Shown: piece by piece, positions 4,762 through 11,404 of the stretch
Layout: every line of letters starts with the position of its first letter
How positions within the stretch are numbered: the first letter of the stretch is position 1
Assembly (NCBI GenBank): GCA_029219345.1
Contig: JAQXTF010000013.1
Coordinates: 1 to 42,072, forward strand
Length of the DNA: 42,072 nt
Direction of reading: 5' to 3'
From: Eggerthellales bacterium
Lineage (GTDB): Bacteria; Actinomycetota; Coriobacteriia; Coriobacteriales; Eggerthellaceae
Notes under the pieces: generated by a model
The model's input: the letters and a program-made list of their open reading frames with translations, nothing else
Database searches by the model: none
What the model was told of the DNA's origin: nothing
Made by a program: the position numbers and the translations under genes

Positions 4762-5322
4762 TTAGACGCGCTTTACGAAGCGGCCGTCGCGAGTGTCAAT
4801 CTGCACGGTTTCGCCCTCGGAGATGTACATGGGGATCTGAACAACAGCGCCAGTCTCCAGGGTAGCAGGCTTGGTAGCACCGGTAACGGTGTCGCCCTTG
4901 AAGCCAGGCTCAGTCTCGGTAACAACCAGCTCAACGAACATCTGAGGCTCAACGGAAACCAGCTCGCCATCAGCATACAGGATGGAAGCTTCGTCGTTTT
5001 CCTTCAGCCACTTAGCGCAATCGCCTACCTGAGCTTCGTTCACTTCAAACTGCTCGAAGGTCTCCATGTCCATGAAGTTGTAGGTTTCGCCGTCGTTGTA
5101 CAGGTACTGCAGTTTCTTGGTTTCCAGACGGATAGCGTCAAACTTGGTGCCAGCGTTGAAGGTGTATTCAACCACGCGGCCGGTGCGGATGTCGCGAAGC
5201 TTGGTGCGAACGAAAGCGCCGCCCTTGCCAGGCTTTACGTGCTGGAACTCAACAATGACACAAGCCTTGTTGTTGTACTCGATGCACATACCGTTCTTGA
5301 AATCAGCGGTAGAGATTGCCAT
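4762..5322 (-). CDS. efp: translation elongation factor P
   Basis: 186 aa, the standard length. It binds between the P and E sites of the ribosome and relieves stalling at polyproline stretches. All three beta-barrel domains are present: the KOW-like N-terminal domain with VKPGKGGAFVRTKLRDIRTG at about residues 29-48, the middle domain, and the C-terminal domain with TKPATLETGAVVQIPMYI and DTRDGRFVKRV. The modification-site loop reads KPGKGGAF, with Lys at the usual position. A strong AAGGAGG precedes the ATG. It follows pepP by about 54 nt, a neighbourhood found in both Bacillus and Mycobacterium. Confidence 0.97.
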   Translation of the reverse strand: MAISTADFKNGMCIEYNNKACVIVEFQHVKPGKGGAFVRTKLRDIRTGRVVEYTFNAGTKFDAIRLETKKLQYLYNDGETYNFMDMETFEQFEVNEAQVGDCAKWLKENDEASILYADGELVSVEPQMFVELVVTETEPGFKGDTVTGATKPATLETGAVVQIPMYISEGETVQIDTRDGRFVKRV

Positions 5323-5376: not shown

Positions 5377-6492
5377 CTATATTATAACCATTTCATGGGT
5401 AGATTGTGTGAAGACATGGAAACCCACAGAAGTAATTACGCCAAAATCTTCCAAACGCATGCCAAATTGGCCCTCCAAATAGATGCCGGGCTCCACCGTG
5501 ACCACGTTTCCTTCTTGCAAGGGAGCGTCGTTGCGCGGGGAAAGATTGGGCTGCTCGTGAATGTCCAGTCCCACGCCGTGGCCCAGGCTGTGGCCCATCT
5601 TGCCGTCGAAGCCTCCTGCCGCCAAGATCTCCTCAGCCTTGTTGTGGGCCTGGGCGCCGGTCACGCCAGGCTTCAGCATGCGCTCCACCGTCTCATTGGC
5701 TTCGCGCAGCACCTCATAGGCAGCGCGCATCTCGGGGCTAGGATCGCCCAGGAACACCACGCGGGTCATGTCGGAGCAGTAGCCGTGGGCGCGGGCGCCA
5801 AAGTCAAGCACCACGCACTGACCCGCCTCCAGCACCGTCTCGCCAGGAATGGCATGGGGGCTGGCACCGTTGGCACCAGTGGCAACAATAGAAGAAAAGG
5901 CCAGGCCAGAGGCACCATGACGCAGCATGAAGTCTTCCAACTCAACCTGCACTTGGCGCTCAGTCATGCCGGGACGCATGTATTGGATGATGTGGCTGAA
6001 GGCGGCATCGGTAATGGCCTGGGCGGCTCGCATGCGGGCAATCTCATTGGCGTCCTTCACGCCGCGCAGGTTTACGCCCACGCCCTGGGTATCCACGAAC
6101 ACCACCGTCATACCCTGGTTTTCCGCCGTAAGGGCATCGGCGCGCTCCAACAGCTTCCGATATTCGCCCAGCATCAGGGTTTCCTCCAGGCCAACTGCAA
6201 ATTTCCCCGCTGTGGGCAGGGCCGCCAGGGCGACAGCGCCATGGGTCTTGGGCTCCAGGCTCACCGTGAAAGGCGTGCCAACGGCGGCGCGGTTCACCGC
6301 CACGGCATAGCGGGAGTCGGTGTGAAGAACGGCCTGGTCAGCGGTGACCAAAAGCCCAAAAGCCCCTTCCCCATCAAACACCCCATCAAAGCCGGTGATC
6401 CATTGAATATCCGATTCGTTGCGCATGAAGAAGCCGTCAAGCTCCTGCTGGGCAAGGGCCTGACGAAACAGTTCAAGACGACGATTTTCCAT
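5377..6492 (-). CDS. M24-family Xaa-Pro aminopeptidase / prolidase
   Basis: 371 aa cytoplasmic dinuclear metallopeptidase that removes an N-terminal residue before proline or splits Xaa-Pro dipeptides. An N-terminal creatinase-like domain precedes the pita-bread domain. The metal-binding residues are visible in DFGARAHGYCSDMTRVV, HSLGHGVGLDIHE, VTVEPGIYLEG and MRLEDFG. The ATG at 6492 is chosen because AAGGAG lies 6 nt upstream and the product starts with MENRRLELF. It is downstream of the aroB-like gene and upstream of efp, the position of pepQ in Mycobacterium and yqhT in Bacillus. PepP cannot be separated from PepQ by reading alone. Confidence 0.93.
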   Translation of the reverse strand: MENRRLELFRQALAQQELDGFFMRNESDIQWITGFDGVFDGEGAFGLLVTADQAVLHTDSRYAVAVNRAAVGTPFTVSLEPKTHGAVALAALPTAGKFAVGLEETLMLGEYRKLLERADALTAENQGMTVVFVDTQGVGVNLRGVKDANEIARMRAAQAITDAAFSHIIQYMRPGMTERQVQVELEDFMLRHGASGLAFSSIVATGANGASPHAIPGETVLEAGQCVVLDFGARAHGYCSDMTRVVFLGDPSPEMRAAYEVLREANETVERMLKPGVTGAQAHNKAEEILAAGGFDGKMGHSLGHGVGLDIHEQPNLSPRNDAPLQEGNVVTVEPGIYLEGQFGMRLEDFGVITSVGFHVFTQSTHEMVII

Positions 6493-6530
6493 AGTCATCT
6501 CCTTAAAAACCGAAGCTGGAAGGCTTGAAG

Positions 6531-7577
6531 CTAGAAAGCCTCCAAGCATGAAAGCAGTTCATGGGCGGGCACCAGCACCTGGCGGCACGCACCAATATCC
6601 GTGGGCAGCATAAGGGTTATGACACCGCCGGGAAGGCTAAACGACCTCAGAGCAATCTGAGCATTAGAAACTTTGGTCTGCTGGATGAAGCCCAGCTGAG
6701 TGAGCAAAGCGTCTTGAGCGTCAATAATATCTGAGGAAATCAAGCCCTCGAAATGGGACAACAGTGCCGAGAAGCGCATGCCATCAGCCAGCGAGGCACC
6801 CATTGCGGAGGCAAACTCGCTGCCATAAGCCAGCACGTTCCAGGCCTCTTCCCCCTGCTGCTCGGCGGCTGCGGAAAGGCTGCTGCGGAAGCTCAAAGTG
6901 CGCACCAGAGCTTCACATACCGCCTCTTCATCGCGGTTGCGCAGGGCGCTGGCGTTGTCGGAAAGCCAGAAGAAGAAGTCGTCGGAATCAAGCAAGGCCG
7001 CCTGGGCCACCAGTTCAAAGCCGGCCATCCACTGATCGGCGGATAGACTTGCAAACAAATCAAGGTCAATGCAGGAATACAGCGGGCGAATATCGGCTTT
7101 CACCTGGCCATTTGCACCTTTTACCTCAAGGACTGCCTGATCGCTTACAGCGCAGCTTACCGCTGCCGCCAACGTGGTGGGCGCGTACACGCAGCGCAGG
7201 CCACCGCCAAAGGCCGTGCCCGCGAAACCCGCCAGGTTCAGCAGGGGCGCATCGCCCATGACCACCAGAACGCTTGCGGAATCAAGCCCCAGCTGCGCCA
7301 TAGCAGCCCACAGCTCGCCCACCGTTTCCAGGGCGTTATCAGGGGAAACGCTCACTTTCGCCGGGCGGAATCCCGCCTGGGAAAGAGCCGTTTTCACAGT
7401 GTCTACCGCTTCAGGAGCCGCGGTGTCGTCAGTAAGCAGCAACACGCGGTTTCCCGCAGGGGCATTTGCGCATGCTTGTTGGATGTTGGCACCCATCTGG
7501 GCAAGAACACCTGAGCCAATGCGCACATCATACGACGGCGCCAAAGCGAAGGTGACTACTAGCTTTGCCTTTCGCAT
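6531..7577 (-). CDS. 3-dehydroquinate synthase-like protein lacking catalytic residues
   Basis: 348 aa, the length of AroB, and in the place of aroB directly behind aroK. The fold is traceable: PSYDVRIGSGVL at the start, LLLTDD, VVMGDAPLLNLAGFAGTAFGGGLRCVYAPTTL in the nucleotide-binding half, and LPTDIG near the end. The active site is nearly erased. The GGG loop reads MGD. The Asp-Ser-Ser-x-Gly-Gly-Lys segment after PTTL reads VSCAVSDQAV. The GHT/GHA zinc region reads YGSEFASA, and the HGEAV motif reads DGMRF. Only two histidines remain in the protein, neither in a zinc-ligand position. It overlaps aroK by 19 nt. It is intact, so an inactive or repurposed AroB relative is likelier than a random pseudogene. 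Confidence 0.82.
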   Translation of the reverse strand: MRKAKLVVTFALAPSYDVRIGSGVLAQMGANIQQACANAPAGNRVLLLTDDTAAPEAVDTVKTALSQAGFRPAKVSVSPDNALETVGELWAAMAQLGLDSASVLVVMGDAPLLNLAGFAGTAFGGGLRCVYAPTTLAAAVSCAVSDQAVLEVKGANGQVKADIRPLYSCIDLDLFASLSADQWMAGFELVAQAALLDSDDFFFWLSDNASALRNRDEEAVCEALVRTLSFRSSLSAAAEQQGEEAWNVLAYGSEFASAMGASLADGMRFSALLSHFEGLISSDIIDAQDALLTQLGFIQQTKVSNAQIALRSFSLPGGVITLMLPTDIGACRQVLVPAHELLSCLEAF

Positions 7578-8113
7578 AGAACTCCCTTTTTAATCAGGGC
7601 GCGGCGCACTTCGCGGGCGATGTCAGCCACGCTACGGCCCGCAGTGTCTACCACAATATCGGCTACTTCTTCATACATGGGGGCACGCTCGGCATTCAGG
7701 CGGCGCGCGTTCTCGATATCGCCAAACAGGGGCCTGCTGGCGAAATTAGTGATACGAGCCTTGGCCTCATCTGCGGAAATGCGCAAATACACCACGCAGC
7801 CGTTCCTTAGCAAGCACTGGCGGCTTTCATCGGTGACCACAATACCGCCGCCACAGGAAATAAGCAGGGGGTCGCGACCTGAAAGCTCCATCAGAATTTC
7901 AGTTTCAATGCTGCGGAACAAATCCTCGCCGCCCTTGGCGAAAATATCCGCCACTGTGCACTGCTCGCGACGTTCAATGTAACGGTCCATGTCAATGCTG
8001 GCGGCACCGCAGGTGCGAGCCAAACGGCGGGCCGTGCTGGTTTTACCAGCACCCATGAAGCCCACGAAGAAAACGGACTGGGTCAATTCATATTTCGGCG
8101 GCATGTAAGGCAT
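7559..8113 (-). CDS. aroK: shikimate kinase
   Basis: 184 aa. It phosphorylates shikimate with ATP. The residues needed are present: Walker A GFMGAGKT at 18-25, the DMD of the shikimate-binding DxD at 41-43, the FRSIE arginine, the SCGGG loop, the lid arginine in SRPLFGD, and LNAERAPMYEEVADI. The start overlaps the aroC-like stop in TGATG, so translation is coupled. The contrast with its two degenerate neighbours is the odd feature: the kinase looks active while the enzymes beside it do not. A few N-terminal residues (MPYMPP) could be trimmed by using the ATG at 8104. Confidence 0.92.
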   Translation of the reverse strand: MPYMPPKYELTQSVFFVGFMGAGKTSTARRLARTCGAASIDMDRYIERREQCTVADIFAKGGEDLFRSIETEILMELSGRDPLLISCGGGIVVTDESRQCLLRNGCVVYLRISADEAKARITNFASRPLFGDIENARRLNAERAPMYEEVADIVVDTAGRSVADIAREVRRALIKKGVLCERQS

Positions 8114-9243
8114 CAGCGAGCCGTCCTGTTCAATCGAGCGATATAAGAATCAACCGCAGCGCGAATATCGGTCATATTGGCGCTGCCAAACTGCTCCAAA
8201 TAGGCGTTGGCCAGCACGAATGCAACCTCAGCCTCAGCCGCCACGGCAATACCGGGTACCGTGCACACCGGGCCGGCGGGGTTTGCGGCATAATCAAGCT
8301 GCAAGGTATCCAGATTCACCGTTTCCTTAGGCGCGCCTGCGCTAGCCGGAGGGGCAACGGCAACGGTAACAATAAGCTGCTCACCGGAAGTCAGGCCATC
8401 TTCCAGGCCGCCCGCGTAATTGGAGGCGCGGGTAAAACCTGCCACCGGGCTTACCAGCACGGCGTCATGGCAAGCGGGACCCTTCTCCTGGGCCAAGGCA
8501 AAACCGGCGCCAAATTCAACGCCCACCACACCCGGCAGCGCGAACAATGCCGCTCCAATCTGGGAATTCAGGCGCTTGCGGCGGTCGGCGAAGCTGCCCA
8601 CGCCGGGCAACAGGCCATCAACCACAATCTGGAACGTGCCGCCCAGGGTCTGGCCGGCCCCGCGAGCGGCTTCCAGCTGAGCGACCATGGCCTCCGTAGC
8701 CCGTTGACTGGGACAGCGAACGGCAGAAAATTCAATATCAAGGGCGCAATATTCCTCAAGCTGAGCAAGAATGTCCTGCTCAGAAAGGGTTTCTTCGCCA
8801 ATGCGAGTAACGAAAGAACCCACCTCAACGCCCAGCTCGGCCAGCAGCTCGCGCGCCACCGAAGCAGCCACCACGCAGGCGGCCTCATCGCAGGAGTCAA
8901 GGCGTGCTGCAACCGCGTCCACCGAATCGGCGGCGGTCTTCAGCACTGCGGCCAGATCACCGCGGCCAGGGCGCAGAAGGGCTCCCTGGGCAGGGGCGTT
9001 TTCTTCTGGCTGCGCTTCGCCAAATACCAGAAACGCCACGGGTGCACCCGTGGTGTTGCGGCCGTAAACGCCGCTTTCAATTTCTACGTAGCATACGGGA
9101 TTGGTGGGGTTGCCATAGCCGGAAAGGCAGCGACGCAAATCGCTTTCAGCCTGGTCTTTTGACAGGCGCAAGCCCGCAGGAACGCCCTGGACCAGCGCAA
9201 TGAGCGCCTGGCCTCCCGCATCTCCTGCCGATGTATAGTTCAT
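8113..9243 (-). CDS. chorismate synthase-like protein lacking catalytic residues
   Basis: 376 aa, the length of AroC. Family landmarks remain: a SAGDAGGQAL start, VPAGLRL, SGYG, GAPVAFLVFG, RPGRGDLAAVLK, VRCPSQRATEAMV, GVEFGAGF, NYAGGLEDGLTSGE, VCTVPGIAVAAEAEVAFVLA. Both catalytic histidines are gone: AGESHG has become AGDAGG and RPGHAD has become RPGRGD. The RxDxCAVPA segment now reads GPVCTVPG, losing its Arg and Asp. Only one His remains in the protein. The ATG at 9243 is chosen over an in-frame GTG at 9252 because an AAAGG lies 8 nt before it. It is first of the aroC-aroK-aroB trio. An inactive or neofunctionalised AroC is inferred. Confidence 0.82.
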   Translation of the reverse strand: MNYTSAGDAGGQALIALVQGVPAGLRLSKDQAESDLRRCLSGYGNPTNPVCYVEIESGVYGRNTTGAPVAFLVFGEAQPEENAPAQGALLRPGRGDLAAVLKTAADSVDAVAARLDSCDEAACVVAASVARELLAELGVEVGSFVTRIGEETLSEQDILAQLEEYCALDIEFSAVRCPSQRATEAMVAQLEAARGAGQTLGGTFQIVVDGLLPGVGSFADRRKRLNSQIGAALFALPGVVGVEFGAGFALAQEKGPACHDAVLVSPVAGFTRASNYAGGLEDGLTSGEQLIVTVAVAPPASAGAPKETVNLDTLQLDYAANPAGPVCTVPGIAVAAEAEVAFVLANAYLEQFGSANMTDIRAAVDSYIARLNRTAR

Positions 9244-9322
9244 AGCTTGCACCTTTCATTCGTTGTCCTGCTTATTGTAACCCAGCACGCGGCAGCGGCA
9301 ACAGGGCAAATGCAGGTCAAAG

Positions 9323-9817
9323 TTATTCAGGCTGCAAGGGGCCCATCAGCTTGCGCTCCAGGCGACGCAGCACCACCGTGTGGCGCAGGTCTTTTTGGGC
9401 CAAAGGCTCCACCAAATAGGCCGTGACGCCCAGCACATGCGCGCCGCAGATATCGGTCAGCAGCTGATCGCCAATAGCCAGCGTTGTGCCCAAAGGGCAT
9501 CCCACCTGGCGCTTTGCATGAAAGTAAGCATAGGGTAGCGGCTTCATGGCCTTAGCAACCACCGGAAGATCAAGCTGGCGCCCCAAATCAAAAACATTGT
9601 CATGCCAGTTGTTACTAAACAGGCACACCGTCACACCCGCTCGGGCAGCTTCCTCCAGCCATTCCTGCACGTCATCTGGCACCAGGCCGTCTTCGCGGGA
9701 GCGAATGGTGTTATCCACATCTACCAGCACGTGAGTGAACCCCAAAGCCGCAATATCGCTTTGAACGTCAATATCGGTTATTCGTTTGAAGTAGCGCTCA
9801 GGTTTGAAAAAAGCCAT
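9323..9817 (-). CDS. YqeG-family HAD phosphatase
   Basis: 164 aa. HAD superfamily, subclass IIIA. The nucleophile motif DVDNT is at residues 33-37, the second motif is LFSNN, the lysine lies in AMKPLPYA, and the acidic motif is IGDQLLTDICGA. Family members are phosphatases with phosphatidylglycerophosphate or nucleotide phosphate as proposed substrates; the substrate here is not determined. AAGGAG precedes the ATG. It is 18 nt behind mltG and ahead of the aroC-like gene. Confidence 0.88.
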   Translation of the reverse strand: MAFFKPERYFKRITDIDVQSDIAALGFTHVLVDVDNTIRSREDGLVPDDVQEWLEEAARAGVTVCLFSNNWHDNVFDLGRQLDLPVVAKAMKPLPYAYFHAKRQVGCPLGTTLAIGDQLLTDICGAHVLGVTAYLVEPLAQKDLRHTVVLRRLERKLMGPLQPE

Positions 9818-9835: not shown

Positions 9836-10972
9836 TTAGCCAAATACGTTGGCGTTGTGTTCGTCGTTGGTCTCGGCAAAGTAGTACTTCATTTCGCCGT
9901 TCTCCTCCTTGAAGAAGAAGTAGAAGTAATCGGTTTCCTCAGGAGAGCAAACCGCCTGCAGGGCTGCCAGGCCCGGGCTGCAGATGGGCGTGGGCGGCAG
10001 ACCGTTGTTGGTGTAGGTGCTGTAAGGAGTATCGGCGTGAACCTCTTCGTAGCTGGGGTCATGGCCCACTTCGTAGGCGGTGGTGGCGTCAGACTGCAGC
10101 GCCATGCCAATGCCCAGGCGGTTGTAGAAGACGGAAGCCACCATGGCGCGGGTGCTTGCGGTAGATTCCTTTTCCACAATGGAGGCCAAGTTCACAATGT
10201 CGTACACGCTCATGCCCTTCTCAGTGGGATAAGCGGTATTCAGCGTGGAAAACTCCTTCTTGAACTGGTCCAACAGCATGCGAATGATGCTGTCGGCGGT
10301 GGCGTTGCCATCAACCATGTAGGTCTTGGGGAACAAGAAGCCCTCCAGCGACTTGGTGCCGGCGTCGGCCAGGAAGGGATAATCGGCGGCATACACGCTG
10401 GCATCGGAAGCAGCAGCGGTAAAGGCATCGGCGGTCACCTTGCCTCCTGTTGCCTCTTCAACACGAGCGGCCACCTGGTTGAGCTTGTAGCCCTCGGGAA
10501 TGATGAGCTTGGTGCCCGACATTTGGGAGCCCGCCTGCAGCATCTTGATAATGTCGTCAGCGGAGGTGCCGCCCTGGATGGTGTAGGTACCCGGCTTCAA
10601 AGAGGTATCGGCGCCCAGCGCAGACACACGCTTCGTAAATTCCTTGGTGTCGGAGATCAGATGGGCGTCCTTCAAAGAGCTTGCAATGTGAGAAGCGCCG
10701 GCGCCTTCGGGAACCACGATGGAAGCGGTCTGATCGGCGGGCAGCAAGTCGGCGTCATCGCCGAAAAGGCCACCAAAAAGCTTGGTGGCGCCAAAAACGA
10801 GTGCAACAACAACCACCAGAGCAAGAATGGCGCCGAAAATCGCCGGGGCCTTGCTCTTCTTGGGTTGAATTGCACTGGTGTCATATGAGCGGAACATTTT
10901 GTCGCCTCTGGCATGGGCGACACGAGCGGCGTGGGTGGGACGAGTAGAGTACGTTGAACGCCTGTTGTTCAT
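9836..10972 (-). CDS. mltG: endolytic peptidoglycan transglycosylase MltG
   Basis: 378 aa membrane-anchored enzyme that cleaves nascent glycan strands and is thought to end their polymerisation. A basic cytoplasmic tail of about 42 residues is followed by one transmembrane helix (about 43-66) and an extracytoplasmic YceG domain. LysM-like strands carry ASIVVPEGAGASHIASSLK, followed by GFLFPKTY, the catalytic-glutamate segment VNLASIVEKE, VFYNRLGIGMALQSDATTAY, and NGLPPTPICSPGLAALQAV. It is located between ruvX and yqeG as in other Actinobacteria. Confidence 0.95.
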   Translation of the reverse strand: MNNRRSTYSTRPTHAARVAHARGDKMFRSYDTSAIQPKKSKAPAIFGAILALVVVVALVFGATKLFGGLFGDDADLLPADQTASIVVPEGAGASHIASSLKDAHLISDTKEFTKRVSALGADTSLKPGTYTIQGGTSADDIIKMLQAGSQMSGTKLIIPEGYKLNQVAARVEEATGGKVTADAFTAAASDASVYAADYPFLADAGTKSLEGFLFPKTYMVDGNATADSIIRMLLDQFKKEFSTLNTAYPTEKGMSVYDIVNLASIVEKESTASTRAMVASVFYNRLGIGMALQSDATTAYEVGHDPSYEEVHADTPYSTYTNNGLPPTPICSPGLAALQAVCSPEETDYFYFFFKEENGEMKYYFAETNDEHNANVFG

Positions 10973-10978
10973 GAATGC

Positions 10979-11404
10979 TTATCCTTCCCGGGATGTTTGG
11001 CGGGTGTCTAACCACGCTTGCAAAAAAAGACTGGCAGCTATCATATCTATTTTTCCGCGCATTTCCTTCTCTGACATGCCCTTTTCACGCAAACTCCGTT
11101 TTGCCTGAGAAGAACTGAGGCGCTCATCGGTGAATTTCACGGGCAATCCGCTGTGACGTGACACCTGCGCGGCAAAATCGCGAATGAACTGGGCTTGCGG
11201 GCCTTCCTCCCCCGCCATGGTGTAGGGCAAACCGCACAGCAGCAGCTCGGGCTCCCAGTCTTCCAAAAGGCGGCGGAACGATTTGGCGCCGGTGCGCACC
11301 TCTTCCGAGGGCAGCACGCACACAGGAGACGCCACGCGTTCGGCGGGGTCACACACCGCAACGCCCACGCGCACCGTTCCAATGTCAAGAGCGAGAATTC
11401 TCAT
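10979..11404 (-). CDS. ruvX: YqgF/RuvX-type RNase H-fold nuclease
   Basis: 141 aa. RNase H-fold protein implicated in 16S rRNA 5' maturation and proposed as a Holliday-junction resolvase. Motifs: ALDIGTVRVGVAV at residues 4-16 with the first catalytic Asp, CGLPYTMAGEEGPQA, FTDERLSS, and the final acidic position in GKIDMIAASLFLQAWLD. The ATG directly abuts the stop of the upstream permease gene, so coupling is likely. It is followed by mltG, the usual partner. Confidence 0.92.
   Translation of the reverse strand: MRILALDIGTVRVGVAVCDPAERVASPVCVLPSEEVRTGAKSFRRLLEDWEPELLLCGLPYTMAGEEGPQAQFIRDFAAQVSRHSGLPVKFTDERLSSSQAKRSLREKGMSEKEMRGKIDMIAASLFLQAWLDTRQTSREG

Follow-up and report, generated by a model that had tools for sequence, protein, structure and literature searches.

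Some proteins related to enzymes of the shikimate pathway are not enzymes themselves. The fungal repressors QutR and TanX (GaaX is named alongside them) are AROM-derived, corresponding to its last three domains, and are proposed to be catalytically inactive while still binding the inducer (PMC10512348). In plants, SKL1 and SKL2 are duplicated shikimate kinase-like proteins that have lost their activity and gained other roles (PMC9424430). Here we describe a bacterial locus that encodes homologues of 3-dehydroquinate synthase (AroB) and chorismate synthase (AroC), designated AroB' and AroC', together with the shikimate kinase AroK'. QutR and TanX resemble AroB' and AroC' in being shikimate-pathway enzymes turned non-enzymes and thus provide a precedent for the mechanism. 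However, they are fungal transcriptional repressors with fused SK-DHQase-SDH domains, they correspond to neither AroB nor AroC, and they were not left in place within a biosynthetic operon. SKL1 and SKL2 are likewise a case of lost activity, but they are plant homologues of the kinase, whereas at our locus the kinase is intact and its neighbours appear dead.

The closest comparison is with the orthologous locus of the family Eggerthellaceae, to which our genome belongs. Its recurrent gene order is ruvX-mltG-yqeG-(aroE)-aroC-aroK-aroB-(aroQ)-pepP-efp, and the enzymes are usually catalytically complete. The corresponding region of Mycobacterium tuberculosis has the order aroC-aroK-aroB-aroQ-pepQ-efp-nusB, with functional enzymes; this is the same ancient actinobacterial order as in our locus. 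We found no report in the open-licence literature of a pseudo-AroB or pseudo-AroC kept in a bacterial aro operon.

The aro slot of the window

The analysed stretch of DNA (the window, 42,072 nucleotides) is contig C13 (JAQXTF010000013.1) of an Eggerthellaceae genome of 1.94 Mb that is 92% complete. We call the aro position between yqeG and pepP the slot. All genes described here are on the minus strand. Upstream of the slot are the conserved neighbours that we take to be ruvX (yqgF; 10979..11404) and mltG (9836..10972), followed by a yqeG-type HAD phosphatase gene (9323..9817) recognized by its profile. The slot itself includes aroC' (8113..9252, with a probable start at ATG 9243), aroK' (7559..8113), and aroB' (6531..7577, 348 aa). 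Downstream are the gene of a pepP/pepQ-type M24 peptidase (5377..6549, also identified by profile) and, presumably, efp, the gene of elongation factor P (4762..5322). Because this neighbourhood is shared with the family, aroC, aroK, and aroB of the window are positional orthologues of the working genes of its relatives. The canonical slot (e.g., that of genome G052) and the window slot are alike in gene order, orthologous position, and predicted fold of the proteins, but the window slot has neither aroE nor aroQ, AroB' is devoid of the catalytic and NAD/zinc residues, and AroC' has lost its catalytic His along with most of the other polar invariants.

The aroB' gene starts with an ATG at 7577, preceded by a Shine-Dalgarno-like AAGGGAG (7588-7582, minus strand) located within the 3' end of aroK'. 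Only AroB-type Pfam domains were detected in 6531-7577, with no SK-DHQase-SDH array. The N-terminal domain model PF01761 is matched with 34.2 bits, above its cut-off of 24.2, and the C-terminal domain model PF24621 with 19.5 bits, under its cut-off of 27.6. The match to TIGR01357 has an E-value of 4e-21, yet its 75.6 bits are under the equivalog cut-off of 305. Identity to the canonical slot AroB of the Eggerthellaceae, including that of G052, is 31-36%, and a search of GTDB contigs brought up no protein closely related to AroB'.

A preliminary description of the window, made from the sequence alone, had claimed that this AroB homologue is devoid of zinc and catalytic residues and that the GGG loop, the D-S-S-x-G-G-K motif, and the GHT/GHA and HG regions are replaced. 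Our alignments bear this out. In comparison with canonical copies of the same family, the NAD loop GGGVVGD is changed to GDAPLLN, DSSVGGKT to SCAVSDQA, and the KN pair to NG. The zinc-binding Glu is replaced by L and its Lys by Q, GHT is replaced by GSE and the His of GHA by S, and the zinc His of HG is a gap. Thus none of the three zinc ligands (Glu, His, and His, at positions assigned by reference to the A. nidulans enzyme) is kept: they correspond to Leu, Ser, and a gap. The catalytic lysines, the aspartate, and the arginine of the MRG motif are absent too. The PTTL motif is retained, as had been described, and so is the genomic position of aroB. Altogether, AroB' has 3 of the 29 active-site residues, whereas each of the 67 canonical copies used for comparison has 25-29. 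In an alignment of 65 canonical copies, 47 columns are at least 98% invariant; AroB' agrees with them at 3 of the 26 polar or charged columns and at 11 of the 21 non-polar ones. Judged by these alignments, AroB' is without what an ordinary AroB needs. It is nevertheless predicted to keep the DHQ-synthase fold: the AF2 model (pLDDT 94.2, pTM 0.92) has AroB/DHQS structures as its best PDB matches, with TM of 0.84-0.90 for the top rows. The input alignments for AroB' and AroC' contained canonical homologues, which favours the family fold.

AroC' is a closer relative of its working counterparts, with 210.8 bits against PF01264 and 43-47% identity to the canonical AroC of the family. Its GESHG motif is changed to GDAGG, RPGHAD to RPGRGD, and SARET to SCDEA, so that the catalytic His and the Arg and Ser residues of the FMN/EPSP site are lost. 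Only 5 of 17 polar invariants remain, against 26 of 29 non-polar ones, a retention with p of about 1e-6 given the overall identity of 46%. Thus AroC', as far as its residues tell, is also without what an ordinary AroC needs. Its AF2 model has a pLDDT of 90.5, and chorismate synthases are its best structural matches. The matches listed in the scan with the AroC alignment were mostly canonical AroC of other phyla, and they were used only to feed the structure-prediction alignments.

AroK' scores 138.2 bits against PF01202 and has all 17 family invariants, including Walker A, the Asp pair, the GGG loop, and the Arg residues. The picture of two degenerate enzymes on either side of an intact shikimate kinase therefore stands. 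The aroK' gene overlaps the start of aroB' by 19 nt and also overlaps the stop of aroC'. In most genera of relatives the AroB match starts 9-15 nt before the aroK stop. Long open frames had raised the suspicion of an AroK-AroB gene fusion in relatives, which was ruled out: in all 57 pairs the two genes are separate frames, mostly overlapping.

A second shikimate operon in the same genome

On another contig of the genome (C91), a run of genes that share one strand comprises pheA, aroB, aroC, an aroE::aroK fusion, aroQ, aroA, and tyrA. A short DAHP-synthase match is located at the contig end, and a DAHP synthase is encoded on contig C97. The C91 proteins are canonical: AroB keeps 46 of 47 invariants, AroC 44 of 46, and the shikimate kinase 15 of 17. 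The preliminary description had considered a pathway in decay and had proposed a search for functional aro genes elsewhere in the genome. The search found them (aroA, aroB, aroC, aroE::aroK, and aroQ), and the shikimate pathway is not decaying, since C91 carries a complete intact second operon. Catalysis has been re-housed there. Annotation by homology would call aroB and aroC in the slot and deduce the pathway from them; the call would be wrong, while the pathway is indeed present elsewhere in the genome.

The tetranucleotide profile of C91 agrees with that of the window at 0.94; the two halves of the window reach 0.915, and the other genomes examined at most 0.86. Contamination is therefore unlikely as the origin of C91. 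The slot copies did not arise by recent duplication of the C91 genes, as the two sets are just 24-29% identical. For the C91 genes, the closest relative that we found belongs to a genome of the same family, G084, with 63% identity for AroC and 61% for TyrA.

This genome (G084, genus g35; L071, L072) has a slot in which AroC, AroK, and AroB are all canonical and, in addition, a second cluster, tyrA-aroA-aroC-pheA. Among the clusters that we read, the latter is the most similar to C91 (63% for AroC). G084 possibly represents an intermediate state.

Dead slot genes across the Eggerthellaceae

We searched 138 genomes of the family and read 80 slot regions. Genera are designated by codes; g1 is the genus of the window genome, and g41 is taken to be Slackia (“Slackia group”). 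The number of active-site residues divides 79 AroB copies into two groups, 67 copies with 25-29 of the 29 residues and 12 copies with at most 13. Eleven of the low-count copies are slot copies from g1 (the window), g10, g12, g18, g27, and g45, i.e., from 11 genomes of six genera. Canonical genera or species interleave with these lineages. A tree built from five genes of the neighbourhood requires six changes, four of which are forced by strongly supported branches. Slot AroB has thus lost catalysis on at least four, and most simply six, separate branches; the marker tree gives no support to a single ancestral loss.

The dead copies differ in their surroundings. A second intact AroB is encoded in g1, g12, g27, one of the two g18 genomes, and one of the three g45 genomes; the search of G046, G127, G129, G034, and G035 yielded none. 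Dead AroB of g10 and g45 comprises only the N-terminal 237-243 residues, and the N-terminal part is shared by all lineages. There is no slot AroK in g12 and in the g10 genomes with dead AroB. In g41, 11 of 12 species have a degenerate slot AroC and a canonical AroC elsewhere in the genome; their slot has no AroB and keeps the kinase. In all 11 copies of this kinase (L055-L065) the middle Gly of the GGG shikimate loop is Glu, a substitution that suggests changed substrate or regulation.

Three types of evidence bear on whether selection keeps the dead copies. The first is dN/dS, estimated by the Nei-Gojobori method on close pairs of relatives (values are rough where dS exceeds 1). Relatives were used in place of the window genes because the window branch is deep and its synonymous sites would saturate. 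The ratio is 0.08-0.29 for dead AroC in close pairs of g41, and for dead AroB it is 0.07 in g10 (G034 against G035), 0.20 in g27, 0.24-0.27 in g45, and 0.43 in g18. For intact slot AroC it is 0.05-0.19. In most dead copies the ratio is about 2-4 times as high as in the intact slot genes of the pair concerned, and their constraint is therefore relaxed.

The second type of evidence is convergence. In the six lineages with dead AroB, 12 conserved positions are lost in all (0.85 expected under independence) and 12 are kept in all (1.0 expected); in both cases the maximum in 5000 shuffles was 5. Among the positions lost in common are those of the catalytic core (R125, D141, K147, T148, K156, K192, and K231 in window numbering). 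The commonly kept set is scaffold: Y16, R19, G21, G29, D50, E88, A92, A116, G126, P133, G186, and W204. For dead AroC, 18 positions are lost throughout and 38 are retained throughout, against expectations of 0.5 and 6.2, but five of the six rows are from g41 and so are not independent. Third, when a canonical gene was made to drift neutrally in simulation until it was as divergent as the observed copies, it acquired 5.6-7.5 stops on average, and in none of the 100 runs per case did the frame stay open.

It is well supported that selection keeps the dead copies of the relatives as folded proteins. Convergent loss and retention beyond chance, together with dN/dS of 0.07-0.43, make the dead slot copies most likely selectively retained pseudoenzymes. 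By extension from the relatives, AroB' and AroC' of the window are probably kept in the same way. The idea of the preliminary description that these proteins are repurposed thereby gains indirect support, from convergent retention and from purifying selection in relatives. The repeated, independent loss of active sites in proteins that stay in place in their operon amounts to a natural experiment and reveals a non-catalytic function of core metabolic enzymes, and comparison of dead and live copies across lineages makes such a function directly testable. As read from these sequences, the recurrence of independent dead-but-kept genes in the Eggerthellaceae points to a non-catalytic job.

Possible roles of the retained proteins

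The following account appears to fit the data best. The slot is the ancestral actinobacterial aro superoperon. In this lineage the second complete operon carries catalysis. Comparison with relatives shows the changes in the old slot, with aroE and aroQ lost, aroC and aroB deprived of their active sites, and aroK intact. Selection would keep AroB' and AroC', which retain their predicted folds and translation signals, as non-catalytic proteins. In the set AroC'-AroK'-AroB' the pseudoenzymes may act as a scaffold or a ligand-sensing partner that modulates the slot kinase. We hold the whole account, from re-housed catalysis to the kinase partnership, with moderate confidence. Taken separately, selective retention of AroB' and AroC' as pseudoenzymes is highly probable. 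Modulation of the slot kinase by them is plausible but tentative, and retention of fold residues alone is compatible with many functions. A universal partnership of AroB' with AroK' was ruled out by g12 and the dead-AroB g10 genomes, without slot AroK, and by g41, which has AroC' and AroK' without AroB.

It is also possible, although we would not assume it, that AroB and AroC of the superoperon have always had an additional, non-catalytic function, for example partnership with the slot kinase or the sensing of aromatic supply in connection with mltG, pepP, and efp. This function would have kept the genes when catalysis moved, and AroC'-AroK' of g41 would be its fully repurposed form. Dead-but-kept copies would then arise repeatedly, as the hidden function alone preserves the genes after a second operon takes over.

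Another reading is that AroB' and AroC' were repurposed separately and independently of AroK', for a new ligand or a new chemistry, as sensors, chaperones, or proteins that bind an aromatic intermediate or other metabolite. The partners are indeed separable in g41, g12, and g10, the N-terminal part of AroB is common to all lineages, and the GGG loop is changed in 11 of 11 g41 kinases. However, the replacements at the old active sites differ by lineage, with no new motif common to the independent ones, and we regard this reading as rather doubtful.

Slow decay, in which the genes are dying and their frames stay open through translational coupling to pepP and efp, seems unlikely. It agrees with the gene overlaps (19 nt between aroK' and aroB', 9-15 nt in most genera of relatives), with the shortened AroB of g10 and g45 and the complete disappearance of slot aroB in g41, and with the raised dN/dS of dead copies relative to intact neighbours. 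Nevertheless, coupling preserves frames and not amino acids; it would not lead one to expect that most pairs have a dN/dS of 0.07-0.29 or that AroC' of the window keeps 26 of the 29 non-polar invariants. Dead AroC also persists in 11 of 12 g41 species.

Misassembly or contamination, with C91 derived from another organism, is very improbable: the assembly consists of 142 contigs with 3.08% contamination, but no other genome examined comes as close to the window in composition as C91 does, the nearest relative of its genes is in the same family, and the same pattern is seen in genomes of few large contigs (G069 and G103). The idea that AroB' is still an enzyme, with metal ligands at new places, and forms dehydroquinate or the product of a related sugar-phosphate cyclase can be practically dismissed. 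The fold is predicted to be retained, but the NAD loop, catalytic lysines, aspartate, MRG arginine, and every zinc ligand have been lost, the scores fall far short of the cut-offs for AroB and for models of related cyclases, and an intact AroB is present elsewhere in the genome.

Several individual genomes deserve mention. G098 and G109 (nearly complete genomes of g41; L055, L056, L126) have a canonical AroC and no AroB-domain protein in the assembly; they would have to obtain dehydroquinate via another route, or they are auxotrophs. In G034 (g10; L051) the slot has a dead AroB of 237 aa and no AroK, and AroC was not found in the genome. In G066 (L101) the slot AroC is broken into three pieces and contains a stop, and AroB is broken into two, on the single contig of an assembly with 82% completeness; these are either true pseudogenes or long-read errors. 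The twelfth low-count AroB, G110b, lies outside the slot as a second homologue. This AroB-like protein, encoded on contig C5 of G110 (L067), has 13 of the 29 active-site residues and is possibly another sugar-phosphate cyclase.
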